A DNA stretch of 57,485 nt, from positions 1-57,485 of the forward strand of contig JAGCUZ010000051.1 in the NCBI GenBank assembly GCA_017962615.1, given 5' to 3'. The translations under genes and the position numbers were made by a program. The notes under the pieces were generated by a model that was given only the letters and a program-made list of their open reading frames with translations, was not told the DNA's origin and ran no database searches. This DNA is from Bacteroidales bacterium (GTDB taxonomy: Bacteria > Bacteroidota > Bacteroidia > Bacteroidales > P3). Shown here in pieces: positions 4,337-49,351 of the stretch (the stretch's first letter is position 1; the number at the start of each line of letters is the position of its first letter).

Positions 4337-4355
4337 GCGCGTACCTTCGGCACGC
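4337..4355. repeat. REP-like hairpin, isolated copy
   Basis: The sequence GCGTACCTTCGGCACGC folds into a 7-pair hairpin with one A-C mismatch. It belongs to the same family as the hairpins of the 45-46.5 kb cluster (GCGTACC, short loop, GGCACGC). The rest of the gap 4302-4587 is G+C-rich, carries open frames on several strands with no family likeness, and I see no gene in it. Confidence 0.55.
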
Positions 4356-43415: not shown

Positions 43416-44696
43416 CTATACAGCGTACAGCGGGATGTTGGTCAGCTGCCCTTGTACTTTGTACGGCAGCATCGAGTAGCGGACAGCCGAGAGATCCGGG
43501 TTGTTCTCAAGCAGCTGGGTTAGCGAGTTGGCCCTGACGTTGCCGCTGGCCTTTACCTCTATGGGCAAAGGGTTGCCCTCATGCTGGATGAGGAAGTCTA
43601 TCTCCAGTCGCGAGTCGGACGATGTGTGGTAATACAATGGCCCCATTCCCTTGCTTGTCATCTGTTGCAGCACATATTGCTCGGTCATGCCGCCTTTGTA
43701 CTCAACAAAAGCGTTGTCGTTCACTATGATTTGCACAGGGTCCACATCGGCCATGGCTCCCAGCAGCCCAATGTCGAGCATATATAGCTTGAATGCTGAG
43801 AGGTCCTCGTAGATGCTCAAGGGCAGAGCCGCTTTCTTGCATCGGGGCACTTTGTATAGCAGTCCAGCGTCGACAAGCCAGCGTATGGCCAGCTCAAAGT
43901 CGTTGGCCCTGGCACCGTTGCGCAGAGCGCCGTAGATGAACTTTTTATTCTCTTTGAACAGTTGCGACGGCATCGAGTTCCACACCATCTTTATGCGCGG
44001 CACCTGCTCTTTCGGCGCATGTTTCGAGAAATCGCGTATATAGCCGCTGATGATGCTCTTCTGTATTCGGCGCACCTCGTGCAGTGCACCGGTTTCGGCA
44101 TTTTCCTTCACGGCCTCTGGCATGCCGCCAACATAATAGTATTGCCGCAGCATGTCGATATACTTGTCGTGCAGAGCCGTCATCAAGTCGAAATCCCGTG
44201 CCTCCAGCACCTTGCACATCTCTACTTCACCCTTGGCCATCAAAAACTCTTCGAAGTTCATGGGGTAAAGGTTAATCTCGTCAACCTTGCCCACAGGGAA
44301 AGAAACGTTGGCATGCATTGAAATGCCCAGCAGCGACCCAGCCACAGCTATATGATATTCAGGTACGTTCTCGCAGAAATACTTCAACGACTCAATAGCC
44401 TCGGGAATATCCTGTACCTCGTCGAGGATAATCAGAGTGTCGCCCGGCGTGATGTCAACGCCCGAAAGGGCGCGGAGGGCCATAAGGATGCGGTCGGTGT
44501 CAAAGTCCTGGGTGAAAACCTTTCGTGCCGCCTCGTTCTTACGACAATAGATATACGCCTCTTTCGCATATTCTTTATGTGCAAACTCGTGAAGGAGCCA
44601 TGTTTTACCCACCTGACGGGCGCCGTTGACGATAAGCGGCTTCCTTTTGGGATTATTCTTCCATTTGATAAGTTGTTTTATTGCAGTTCGTTCCAT
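43416..44696 (-). CDS. AAA-family ATPase with DUF4143 domain
   Basis: The N-terminal P-loop domain has Walker A GARQVGKT (25-32) and Walker B LIILDEVQD (about 88-96), plus the sensor phrase VAGSLLGI. The second half shows DUF4143 features: YYYVGGMPEAV, LYMLDIGLLGAM and the end DFLIQHEGNPLPIEVKAS, which resembles a restriction-endonuclease-like (DExK) core. Such genes are widespread in Bacteroidota and archaea in many paralogues. Their role is unknown; a link to mobile or defence functions has been suggested. It stands alone with its own promoter next to the repeat cluster. Confidence 0.88.
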   Translation of the reverse strand: MERTAIKQLIKWKNNPKRKPLIVNGARQVGKTWLLHEFAHKEYAKEAYIYCRKNEAARKVFTQDFDTDRILMALRALSGVDITPGDTLIILDEVQDIPEAIESLKYFCENVPEYHIAVAGSLLGISMHANVSFPVGKVDEINLYPMNFEEFLMAKGEVEMCKVLEARDFDLMTALHDKYIDMLRQYYYVGGMPEAVKENAETGALHEVRRIQKSIISGYIRDFSKHAPKEQVPRIKMVWNSMPSQLFKENKKFIYGALRNGARANDFELAIRWLVDAGLLYKVPRCKKAALPLSIYEDLSAFKLYMLDIGLLGAMADVDPVQIIVNDNAFVEYKGGMTEQYVLQQMTSKGMGPLYYHTSSDSRLEIDFLIQHEGNPLPIEVKASGNVRANSLTQLLENNPDLSAVRYSMLPYKVQGQLTNIPLYAV

Positions 44697-44732
44697 TGGT
44701 ATTCATACATTTTTCCGCACATATTCCGACTG

Positions 44733-44740
44733 CAAAGATA
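44733..44740 (-). promoter_or_regulatory. Promoter -7 element of the DUF4143 ATPase gene, inside A-rich repeats
   Basis: TATCTTTG reading leftward lies 37 bases before the ATG. Around it (44700-44800) the motif ATATGTGCAAAAAAGTGT and close variants occur three times, so the promoter is embedded in a small repeat. Confidence 0.6.
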
Positions 44741-44837
44741 CACTTTTTTGCACATATTTCAAGCATATCAGCACACTTTTTTGCAGCAAAATGGTGGATT
44801 TTCGCAAATATGAATAGGACTGCCGTACAATCAATAT

Positions 44838-44941
44838 GTCCCGAAGGGACGAGACCCTGCATAACACCGTACTGCCGAAGGCTGCGAACTCCCGTAAAAA
44901 TGAAAATATGGAAAGTGAGCAAGTAAAGCGCAGTGCGGTGA
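44838..44941. repeat. Hairpin-bounded repeat unit A
   Basis: The unit begins with the perfect hairpin GTCCC-GAA-GGGAC (44838-44850). It runs through ACCGTACTGCCGAAGGCTGC and a 57-base core that is identical in units A-D, and ends CGCAGTGCGGTGA. A REP-like hairpin of the second type follows at 44967-44984 (GCGTGCC-GATA-GGTACGC). No ribosome-binding or family signal supports the small open frames it contains. Confidence 0.8.
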
Positions 44942-44990
44942 CACGTGTCACAATCCACCACTCTATGCGTGCCGATAGGTACGCGACGGC

Positions 44991-45106
44991 TTGTTAATAC
45001 AATTTTGCTTGTTAATCGCACAAATGGTATTTGTTTGTAAATCAGCAGATATCTTTAATTTTTGTATTTGTCGGGCTTGTTTTCCTTGTTAATCCGCCTT
45101 GTTAAT
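44991..45106. repeat. Four copies of CTTGTTAATC between repeat units A and B
   Basis: TTGTTAAT occurs at 44991, 45009, 45086 and 45099, three times continued as TTGTTAATC(C/G). The rest of 44985-45197 shows no gene. Confidence 0.4.
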
Positions 45107-45197
45107 CGTCCAGTATTTCCCTTCAACAAACGTGATGGATTATGTAATAAAGGGGGGCGTTGCATTGCCATGTGAGCAGGCAGTGTGTTGCAAATAT

Positions 45198-45336
45198 GTC
45201 CCGAAGGGACGAGACCTTGCATAACACCGTACTGCCGAAGGCTGCGAACTCCCGTAAAAATGAAAATATGGAAAGTGAGCAAGTAAAGCGCAGTGCGGTG
45301 ATGGATAGACTCTACACATGCGTCCCGAAGGGACGC
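45198..45336. repeat. Hairpin-bounded repeat unit B and the hairpin before the transposase gene
   Basis: Unit B (45198-45301) is nearly identical to unit A. It is followed by a perfect 7-pair hairpin GCGTCCC-GAA-GGGACGC (45320-45336), which ends 48 bases before the transposase ATG. Confidence 0.8.
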
Positions 45337-45383
45337 GACAATGCATGATACAATAATATGCAGCACCTCGCGTTTCTATACAC

Positions 45384-45833
45384 ATGAGTTATACATGTAC
45401 TATATACCACGTTGTGCTCCGCACGCACCGTAGCGAGAAAGCGATAGCCGAGGAATACGAGGCCGAGCTGTATGCCTATATGAACGGCATTATCAACCAT
45501 CTTGACGGCAAGCTCTACCGCATCGGCGGTATGCCCGACCATGTGCACCTCCTCGTGTCGTTGCCTGCCACCCTCGCCATGGCACCGTTCGTGAAAGAAC
45601 TGAAAGTGTCGACCAGCAAGTGGATGAAAGCCAATCCGCACTTCCCCTTGTTCACAGGATGGTCGCAAGAGTATGCGGGGTTCACCTACAGCATACACGA
45701 CAGCGACAAGATAATCAACTACATCAAGAACCAGAAGGAACACCACAAGAGGATGACCTTTGCCGAAGAGTACCGCAGGTTCGTCGAGGCCAACAACCTG
45801 CCCATAGACGAGCGGTACTTCATGAAAGACTGA
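45384..45833 (+). CDS. Y1 (HUH) tyrosine transposase, RAYT/IS200-like, single-copy in a repeat cluster
   Basis: The 149-residue protein has the full Y1 set: the HUH motif as His53-Val-His55 (MPDHVHLLVS) and the catalytic tyrosine Tyr113 in INYIKNQKEHH, with Gln117 as likely third metal ligand. Length is normal. Y1 enzymes nick and rejoin single-stranded DNA next to hairpins. There is no tnpB/iscB partner and no IS ends; instead both flanks are hairpins of the local repeat family (45320-45336 and 45839-45856, the latter six bases after the stop). This is the arrangement of REP-associated tyrosine transposases (RAYTs), which are domesticated or mobilise REP elements. Confidence 0.85.
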   Translation: MSYTCTIYHVVLRTHRSEKAIAEEYEAELYAYMNGIINHLDGKLYRIGGMPDHVHLLVSLPATLAMAPFVKELKVSTSKWMKANPHFPLFTGWSQEYAGFTYSIHDSDKIINYIKNQKEHHKRMTFAEEYRRFVEANNLPIDERYFMKD

Positions 45834-45838
45834 TTGTC

Positions 45839-46103
45839 GCGTACCTGTCGGCACGCAGGCAGGGTGGGGGAGGCGAGCTCTCACGGCACTGCGCCTTGCT
45901 CACTGCGTTCGCAGCCTGCGGCACGGCTTGTACCGTGTTAATCAAAGTCGCGTGCCGTTGGCACGCCATGTAGGATAGTCTGTCACGACAGTGTAAACGT
46001 CCCTATCGGGACGTGACTCTGCATAACACGGTACTGCCTAAGGCTGCGAACTCCCGTAAAAATGAAAATATGGAAAGTGAGCAAGTAAAGCGCAGTGCCG
46101 TGA
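45839..46103. repeat. 265-base composite repeat, copy 1 (inverted short unit plus unit C)
   Basis: Begins with the REP-like hairpin GCGTACC-TGTC-GGCACGC, then a shortened, inverted unit (TCACGGCACTGCGCCTTGCT...ACCGTGTTAA, 45881-45941). A perfect hairpin GCGTGCC-GTT-GGCACGC (45950-45966) and the hairpin ACGTCCC-TATC-GGGACGT (45997-46014) come next, followed by a direct full unit. A further short unit without core lies at 46105-46146. Confidence 0.85.
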
Positions 46104-46218
46104 TGTCCCGATAGGGACGTGAGTCTGCGATAGCGCAGTGCGGTGACTGGGAGCCCCTATCCATGCGTGCCGATAGGTACGCGATACGGGCACGGCGATG
46201 ATACAGCAGCATATGGTT

Positions 46219-46483
46219 GCGTACCTGTCGGCACGCAGGTAGGGTAGTGGTGGCATGCTCTCACGGCACTACGCCTTGCTCACTGCGTTCGCAGCCTGCG
46301 GCACGGCTTGTACCGTGTTAATCAAAGTCGCGTGCCGTTGGCACGCCATGTAGGATAGTCTGTCACGACAGTGTAAACGTCCCTATCGGGACGTGACCCT
46401 GCATAACACCGTACTGCCGAAGGCTGCGAACTCCCGTAAAAATGAAAATATGGAAAGTGAGCAAGTAAAGCGCAGTGCCGTGA
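46219..46483. repeat. 265-base composite repeat, copy 2 (inverted short unit plus unit D)
   Basis: Repeats 45839-46103 at an exact 380-base distance with few changes. It is followed, like the short unit before it, by CCCCTATCCATGCGTGCC and a REP-like hairpin at 46502-46519. The high identity points to a recent duplication of a hairpin-core-hairpin module. The stretch 46520-46616 shows nothing more. Confidence 0.85.
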
Positions 46484-46501
46484 CTGAGAGCCCCTATCCA
46501 T

Positions 46502-46519
46502 GCGTGCCGATAGGTACGC
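46502..46519. repeat. REP-like hairpin closing the cluster
   Basis: GCGTGCCGATAGGTACGC folds into 7 pairs (one G-T) with a GATA loop; identical copies at 44967 and 46165. Confidence 0.75.
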
Positions 46520-46616
46520 GACAGGGTGCCGTGTTTACCAATGGGATTATTGCCTCTTTTGTGCGGCGTCCTTGGCGGCGGGGTGGGGGATGCCGCCTTT
46601 GCGGTAGGGGTGGGGG

Positions 46617-47066
46617 TTATTCCACCAGGTGGAGGTCTTCAGCGGGGATGTCGCGGCGTTGCTGGCGGAAGTAGGAGGGGACCACGATTACCACGTGGGC
46701 CTTCCATTGGCCGTCGCGTTTCAGCATCGGGAGGCTGCTGCTGTCGGTCGACAGCGGGGTGCTCTTCACGAAGCGCACCTCGGCGGTGCTGTCGCTCAAG
46801 AGGTCGATGGCGGTAATCCGCGTCTGTGCCTGGCGGTTCTGCTCTATGAAATGCGGGTCGGTGTTGGGCAGCAGTACATCCTTGAAGAACTGCAGGGTCA
46901 CCTGCTGCGTCTCGTCGGTGGCGTATTGCGCCGCCTTGTCGAAGTCGTAGTCGGCCACGGCGTCCAGGTACGCTTGGGCCGCAGACTCTATTGCGCAGTT
47001 CTCGCTCCGGCAGCCCGACAGTAGGACCATGCAGGCTATTGCCACTATGGCTATAGTTCGTCTCAT
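46617..47066 (-). CDS. Small lipoprotein, NTF2/DUF4878-like
   Basis: Lipoprotein signal with lipobox LLSGC (Cys19). The mature domain begins AIESAAQAYLDAVADYDFDKAAQYA and ends in WKAHVVIV. This pattern is typical of the cystatin-like NTF2-fold DUF4878 lipoproteins (helix with a 'dyd...A..yat' phrase, then a curved sheet). Function of the family is unknown. It lies between the repeat cluster and a terminator, and seems to be its own unit. Confidence 0.75.
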   Translation of the reverse strand: MRRTIAIVAIACMVLLSGCRSENCAIESAAQAYLDAVADYDFDKAAQYATDETQQVTLQFFKDVLLPNTDPHFIEQNRQAQTRITAIDLLSDSTAEVRFVKSTPLSTDSSSLPMLKRDGQWKAHVVIVVPSYFRQQRRDIPAEDLHLVE

Positions 47067-49081: not shown

Positions 49082-49200
49082 GTTACGGTTGCGGAGGGGG
49101 TGGATTTTTGGGGTGCCTGATGTGGCACTGCCGTGTGTCGAGAATGTGCATAAACTGGCTGATAATCATGTGTACATTCCAGGAATTGTTTCTCAAAGTC

Positions 49201-49275
49201 GCGTACCTTTCGGCACGCATTTGCGTTCTGTTGTATTGCACCGCACTGCGCCTTCGGCTTGTACGGTGTTATTTG
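49201..49275. repeat. Dispersed, shortened copy of the REP-like family
   Basis: REP-like hairpin GCGTACCTTTCGGCACGC (49201-49218), then CACCGCACTGCGCCTTCGGC and TACGGTGTTAT (49239-49272), an inverted unit without its core. Confidence 0.65.
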
Positions 49276-49351
49276 CACTGCGTGCGTTCAGCCCCCACAG
49301 GGCTGTAAATAAAAAAATGCTGAAAAGTTGTGATATGTGCAAAAAAATAGT

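Follow-up and report, generated by a model that had tools for sequence, protein, structure and literature searches.

An IS200-class transposase closest to subclass 1.2 among dispersed hairpin units in Bacteroidales: a probable REPtron-like system

Background

The end hairpins of IS200/IS605 insertion sequences are in direct orientation around tnpA, and IS608 processes its hairpins as single strands with a foot as the recognition or guide element. The orientation of IS200/IS605 elements is described as following replication, with the lagging-strand template preferred (PMC5371812), and PATEs are described as miniature derivatives that lack a transposase (PMC3119063). The TnpA_REP enzymes, or RAYTs, are likewise reported to process hairpins as single strands; the foot guides cleavage in Marinomonas (Mb), and changes to the foot failed to retarget cleavage by the Ec and Sm enzymes (PMC8266576). 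RAYTs are described as predominantly vertically inherited in a survey (Quentin et al. 2018, PMC6006769) whose table also gives for subclass 1.2 a length of 148 aa, a copy number of 1.7 per genome, 36.2% identity between copies, WQ in the W motif, "no" for REP, and occurrence in Cyanobacteria and Bacteroidetes. Where its text treats this subclass it calls the proteins IS200-like, without the properties of insertion sequences and generally without typical terminal structures. Since it is described as having neither IS properties nor REPs, subclass 1.2 is without a known substrate, and we found no report of REPs for it in the literature searched, a coverage that takes in few subscription papers. 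Finally, the CGTC-tagged REPs, which have been reported from Bacteroidetes too, often have the tag changed to TGTC, have stems of 8-9 bp that almost always begin with A/T pairs, and are not known to have a dedicated transposase (Di Nocera et al. 2013, PMC3733652).

Results and discussion

tnpA lies within a cluster of hairpin units

In the window, that is, the whole 57,485-nucleotide stretch of a Bacteroidales genome that was analysed, tnpA (45384..45833, plus strand) lies inside a cluster of hairpin units at 44837-46519. A full unit consists of a foot and a hairpin of about 7 bp with a loop of 3-4 nt, an imperfect central stem, a second hairpin in direct orientation to the first, and then GAC. 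Unit A (44837..44984, plus strand) has its first hairpin at 44837-44851 with the foot AGAC and its second at 44967-44984 followed by GAC. Unit B (45197..45336, plus strand) is built in the same way, with a hairpin at 45197-45211 with the foot AGAC and a hairpin at 45320-45336 followed by GAC that ends 47 nt 5' of the tnpA start. On the other side, directly 3' of the tnpA stop, the GTC-hairpin 45839-45856 opens an inverted shortened unit (45836..45966, minus strand) that has a short central stem from 45882 and another GTC-hairpin at 45950-45966. Then come unit C (45997..46120, plus strand; hairpins 45997-46014 and 46104-46120), a GCGTGCC-GATA-GGTACGC hairpin 3' of it (46165..46182, plus strand), a second inverted shortened unit (46216..46346, minus strand) within a 271-bp direct copy of 45833-46103 (96%), and unit D (46377..46519, plus strand; hairpins 46377-46394 and 46502-46519, then GAC). 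A 59-bp core, which is mostly the loop region of the central stem, is identical in its four copies at 44878..44936, 45238-45296, 46040-46098 and 46420-46478. The first-pass annotation had reported hairpins on both sides of the gene, at least four full units, inverted shortened units and several hairpin types, and all of this was confirmed, five stem forms being read in the cluster (TGTCCC..GGGACG, GCGTGCC..GGTACGC, GCGTCCC..GGGACGC, ACGTCCC..GGGACGT and GCGTGCC..GGCACGC). The core that it had given as identical in units A-D is indeed identical, but it is 59 bp and not 57 bp long. Its notion of hairpin, core and hairpin as a modular unit is likewise supported.

Elsewhere in the window there is an isolated unit at 49198..49280 (minus strand), with a GTC-hairpin at 49201-49218 and a central stem, whose right end was set by eye, and a hairpin at 4339..4355 (minus strand) that was assigned by eye to a third type, with the foot GAGGGC and CCCCAGAC-type sequence alongside. 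No Rfam match was found in 44700-46700 up to an E of 0.1. Genes for AAA-type ATPases adjoin units or cassettes at window positions 43416-44696, in L056 (3161-4417) and in loci L203 and L218, and this may reflect either a preferred neighbourhood or merely a common gene. The names recA, dus, lipoprotein and ATPase were given by eye from translations.

The transposase is closest to subclass 1.2

The tnpA product is a 149-aa HuH Y1 transposase that matches Pfam Y1_Tnp with an E of 1.5e-20. The open reading frame and its catalytic residues hold as first described, with H53, H55 and Y113 invariant in an alignment of 17 relatives. The label RAYT, on the other hand, had to be given up. The Y motif is Y---Q--HH and the class 2 RAYT motif Y---NP is absent, and the NCBIfam RAYT model scores 20 bits against a cut-off of 80 whereas the IS200 model scores 54.9 bits against a cut-off of 55. 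Membership of class 2 was considered and is contradicted by that motif and by the RAYT model score. DHVH, YIKNQKEHH and the length of 149 aa match subclass 1.2 (DH[IV]H, YIKNQKEHH, about 148 aa, Bacteroidetes). However, the W motif is WS, the form of subclass 1.1, and differs from the WQ of the subclass 1.2 table, and it is for this reason that we term the protein closest to subclass 1.2 and not a certain member.

The transposase had also been called lone, which it is not, because its own genome, a 67%-complete MAG, has a second Y1 gene whose product is 35% identical to it, and each of the two genes adjoins its own hairpin type. Two copies this far apart are low-copy and divergent as in subclass 1.2 (35% here, 36.2% there), and many identical transposase copies were not found, though in a genome of this completeness copies could be missed. 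The second gene (contig C40 of genome G000, 58445-58882, locus L002) encodes DHMH, YILHQREHH and the W motif WQ. The hairpins beside it stand partly in inverted pairs, a further, separate palindrome, of the CCAGCCAAT..ATTGGCTGG type, adjoins, and a short tandem repeat array at about 710-930 of L002, 5' of this gene, has no obvious kinship to the hairpins. The window protein is not a RAYT and, on our reading, not a standard IS200 transposase, and to the extent that the anatomy shows it behaves as a REPtron enzyme.

Hairpins are dispersed in the genome that carries the gene

The pattern CGTNCCN{3,4}GGNACG has 104 sites in the own genome against 15 for the reversed control, and hairpins tagged with the GTC foot number 47 against none in the control. 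Thus, the repeats are dispersed, as the first-pass annotation had supposed, and are not confined to the locus. When the 47 tagged sites were assigned to families by eye, 19 had the loop type found beside the C40 gene, and 12 of these form six inverted pairs 46-51 bp apart; the other 28 are of other types, 8 of them in the window cluster, and the remaining 20 are spread over 11 contigs, among them that of the window itself, with the site at 49198. Outside the cluster, 3 of the 24 distinct tagged hairpins examined lie inside open reading frames of at least 150 aa, compared with 64% of random positions, so the dispersed copies are mostly outside long reading frames. A 103-base unit had nine matches in the genome, of which four are in the cluster, four are short and partial, and one is on contig C5 (82 bases, 88%); the long core is therefore nearly local, with this one longer match elsewhere. 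Contig ends fall within about 0.7 kb of hairpin sites or tnpA in several assemblies (G000 contigs C2, C8, C23 and C33; G043 C82; G047 C8; G044 C87; G024 C134), and since they do, the repeats may break metagenome assemblies and the copy numbers given here are perhaps too low.

Flanking hairpins in relatives are polar and vary with the protein

Homologues were found in 55 of 99 genomes of the genus (E <= 1e-5) and, by a profile search of the phylum, in 164 of 395 genomes (E <= 1e-15), both sets having one genome per species, evenly drawn. A motif-seeded scan confirmed 564 places, the best 80 of which were used. Many of these 80 are in Bacteroidales MAGs from herbivore guts, and others are in Cyclobacteriaceae, Chitinophagaceae, Chryseobacterium, Oligosphaera and Actinobacillus. 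The homologue in two Actinobacillus genomes (L124 and L135), far from the main hosts, is 47% identical and has a downstream hairpin with the foot TTA; horizontal acquisition is our guess. Altogether Y...Q..HH is present in 139 of 140 loci, 80 of which come from the scan that was seeded with that motif.

The flanks of the 140 loci were scanned for perfect hairpins (stem of at least 7, loop 3-5) within 130 bp of the gene, with first-order Markov samples as controls. Such hairpins are upstream of the gene in 87 of 139 loci (control 4.2), downstream in 104 of 137 (control 3.9), and on both sides in 76 of 136 scorable loci (control 0.2), which leaves 60 of 136 with at least one side without a perfect hairpin. 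They lie close to the start and stop codons, and in several clades the foot overlaps the stop codon. Since the genus and motif-scan sets overlap, polarity and foot were counted on 129 unique proteins, using on either flank whichever perfect hairpin was closest to the gene, provided that it lay within 130 bp and had a stem GC of at least 40%. Read with the gene side as 3', the loops of the 170 hairpins obtained are GNA or GNNA in 119, TNC or TNNC in 7 and neither in 44 (nominal p 2e-27 for 119:7, with related loci treated as independent). The hairpins therefore have a polarity, with those on either flank of a gene inverted relative to each other. The trinucleotide on the gene side is NAC at 78 of 170 hairpins, which on the opposite strand reads as a 5' GT foot, and NAC is on the outer side at 5 of 170; in one clade GCTCTC replaces it. 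GT[AG] followed by G, the RAYT foot, is at 32 of 170 hairpins, unlike the window foot, which is GTC followed by G.

The same 3-nt foot is on both flanks in 25 of 68 loci, compared with 6% when shuffled. Trees were made from 124 of the 129 proteins, short rows and rows with stops being left out, and foot and stem states were mapped on them, dropping states seen fewer than three times so that 76 and 45 rows were kept. The foot changes 31 times on the protein tree (shuffled mean 51.7, minimum 43 of 300) and the stem 10 times (shuffled mean 28.0, minimum 24). Foot and stem thus vary together with the protein.

The repeats are partly associated with the gene

A close homologue was defined by a best E <= 1e-50 among the 99 genus genomes. 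Twofold or greater enrichment of the CGTNCC hairpin over control is seen in 14 of the 31 genomes that have a close homologue, in 1 of 24 with a distant one and in 5 of 44 with none (Fisher p 7.6e-5 for close homologue against the rest). The repeats are therefore not equally common in genomes without the gene. In the other 17 of the 31 genomes the tested stem class is not enriched, which would be expected if their stems differ. Five genomes are enriched without a detected homologue (G006, G036, G042, G049 and G059), two of them with only 3-4 sites, and two with a broken gene keep many repeats, namely, G094 with 53 sites and G017 with 43. In the phylum set, all 12 genomes with at least two AACCCCNNNGGGGTT sites carry the gene; of those with exactly one site 14 of 29 do, which is about the base rate (164/395). 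Matches to a Flavobacteriia-type stem occurred in 7 of 15 carriers and in none of 4 non-carriers, with at most 20 copies in each. The CGTNCC stem class is enriched chiefly where the gene is present, exceptions occur in either direction, and the association is a partial one.

Cassettes and units differ in position between genomes

The tnpA genes of G043, G047, G094 and G095 are 96.2-98.5% identical (over 333 nt only in three of the pairs), whereas recA is 79.4-83.0% identical among them and below tnpA in all 6 pairs. These genomes share a block of about 770 bp, composed of a unit, tnpA and a unit, in unrelated flanks. From these sequence comparisons, the cassette seems to have been transferred between species and relocated. 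In G039 a tandem array of units with an 86-bp period comes after the neighbour gene of the G094 cassette (94% over 2257 bases), and no tnpA was found near this array within the 5.5 kb examined. On the 3' side of dus, the only side on which the comparison was anchored, units are present in 6 of 15 genomes and absent from 9, two of which offer little sequence (G016 with 221 bp and G095 with 625 bp); tnpA is there in G094 only, in two pieces. In loci L058-L060 the gene is in one common neighbourhood, with the gene of L059 in the opposite orientation. We infer from these comparisons between species that the units are mobile; movement within a species was not seen among the comparisons made. For the window cluster no empty site was readable in the 12 congeners tried, in all of which recA was found, because the other matched genes of the region were either on different contigs or at least about 24 kb distant. 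No vehicle for the cassette was found in the phage, plasmid and viral-contig comparisons: phage records gave no match, plasmid records gave two at 34-35% identity, and viral contigs gave 45 loci at 24-48%.

A dispersed unit with strand bias in Oligosphaera ethanolica

Oligosphaera ethanolica DSM 24202 (L109, G493) is an isolate with a single 5.7-Mb contig. Counted with up to one mismatch, the hairpin flanking its tnpA has 273 copies, 113 on the plus and 160 on the minus strand, with 0 in the control and 0 in four other genomes. Eighteen copies inspected with their flanks form a unit made of the hairpin, ATGCATAA, a central stem, a further hairpin and ACATT, a three-part unit in which the central stem encloses the searched hairpin, and TGCATAAC in the window unit stands where this unit has ATGCATAA. 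The last hairpin of one such unit ends 18 nt 5' of the tnpA ATG, and inverted units are nearby downstream. In this one relative, with the skew sampled at 20 places, the strand agrees with the sign of the GC skew for 67 of 86 exact copies and is against it for 19; with clusters merged, 55 of 73 agree (p 1.7e-5). The blocks at 2.05-2.5 and 2.5-3.0 Mb depart from this rule and are perhaps inversions. By the usual convention the sign of the GC skew tells the leading from the lagging strand, and this agreement would thus place the GT-foot strand on the lagging-strand template.

A proposed mechanism

We propose, at a probability of roughly three in four, that this is a REPtron-like system. Its enzyme, a TnpA of the IS200 class that is low in copy number and nearest to subclass 1.2, would mobilise the hairpin units in single-stranded form. 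TnpA would recognise a short hairpin together with a clade-specific 5' foot (GTC, GTA, GTG, GTT or GAGAGC), the foot acting as a recognition or guide element as in TnpA_REP and IS608, and it would act on the hairpin as single-stranded DNA, probably on the lagging-strand template. It would move or amplify units of hairpin, central stem and hairpin, and these would pile up mostly between genes, singly or in tandem, while tnpA between two inverted units would be a cassette able to relocate and to cross species. The sequences show the anatomy, dispersal and polarity, the partial association with the gene, the covariation of foot and stem with the protein, the presence or absence of units beside dus, a cassette far more alike between species than recA, and the strand bias along the chromosome of one isolate; the binding, nicking and moving of units by TnpA, and the strand that it processes, we infer. 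On the strand the evidence conflicts. The REP analogy and the skew favour the GT-foot strand. The GNA strand is favoured by mismatches, which on it are G.T in 31 cases against A.C in 10, with 30 others, and by the fold of the unit at 46377-46519, which as single-stranded DNA gives three stems on the plus strand (z -2.9 versus shuffles) and not clearly so on the minus strand (z -0.7). GNA loops in DNA are stable.

Three other explanations were weighed against this reading. The most serious, although we consider it unlikely, is that tnpA belongs to an ordinary IS200/IS605 insertion sequence with end hairpins and that the dispersed units are its deletion derivatives, PATE-like and moved in trans. 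In its favour are the transposase class with its IS200-like Y---Q and the WS of subclass 1.1, and the hairpin ends, the direct hairpins within window-type units and the miniature derivatives without transposase, as in IS200/IS605 elements (IS608, ISDra2) and PATEs. So are the cassette, which lies in unrelated flanks and is more alike between species than recA, the strand bias of the one relative, which resembles the replication-linked orientation described for IS200/IS605, and G043, which has a pair of close copies with 84% and 82% identity to the window protein. Yet such end hairpins should be direct, and those beside the gene are inverted (119:7); the units examined have a third, central stem; the own genome, 67% complete, has one copy and another at 35% with no near-identical ones; and subclass 1.2, as characterised in PMC6006769, lacks IS properties. 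A true class 2 RAYT REPtron with divergent REPs is the least probable of the three. It would account for the inverted hairpins on the two sides of the gene, the dispersal of palindromes, a repeat type proper to each enzyme, coevolution and the frequent 5' GT foot, with GT[AG] then G at some hairpins, all of which our system shares with REP, BIME and REPIN systems, but the enzyme is class 1 by its Y---Q--HH and falls far below the cut-off of the RAYT model. Moreover, the foot varies by clade, the cassette seems horizontally transferred unlike the predominantly vertical RAYTs, and whereas a REPIN has two inverted REPs, of which the six inverted pairs of C40-type hairpins may be a counterpart, in window-type units the two hairpins are direct and enclose a central stem.

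The hairpins could also be host elements such as terminators, RNA or nucleoid sites with a function of their own, among which tnpA merely inserted. That most tagged hairpins are outside long reading frames, and that they remain where tnpA is broken or undetected, is in keeping with this, but it is improbable in view of the foot and stem, which track the transposase tree and often match on both flanks of one gene, of the position of the hairpins near start and stop codons with the foot over the stop codon in several clades, of the 9 of 15 congeners without units beside dus, and of the lack of an Rfam match up to E 0.1. The window hairpins share the CGTC/TGTC tag with the CGTC REPs, but the stem is 7 bp, GCGTNCC, with G-C first; because stem length and first pairs differ, identity with them is not claimed. 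Of the earlier interpretation, then, the REPtron-like organisation in Bacteroidales, with a transposase inside its own hairpin cluster and dispersed copies mostly outside long reading frames, is retained under the reading that we prefer, and the enzyme class and the word lone are replaced.

Conclusions

The system differs from subclass 1.2 as tabulated, with its "no" for REP and its WQ, in that many relatives have polar, inverted hairpins on their flanks and these occur in dispersed copies, and in the WS of the window protein. A wider reading, which we hold to have an even chance, is that TnpA proteins like those of subclass 1.2 form, apart from the RAYTs, a second lineage of Y1 transposases that serve repeats. 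In Bacteroidota and beyond, the enzyme would coevolve with its hairpins, feet and three-part units, insertion would have replication polarity and cassettes would spread between species. Such proteins would then be an extant link between IS200 insertion sequences and the domesticated RAYT systems, and the foot could be taken as a guide sequence that changes. The W-motif mismatch slightly lowers the probability of this reading. If the proteins described here do belong to subclass 1.2, the sequences beside each gene supply candidate substrates, and the published absence of REPs from this subclass would have to be revised, for Bacteroidota at least. With foot and stem varying by clade in step with the protein, the family offers a natural experiment on the question of the guide sequence. 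If true, this reading would tie REP-like biology to replication polarity and horizontal transfer.
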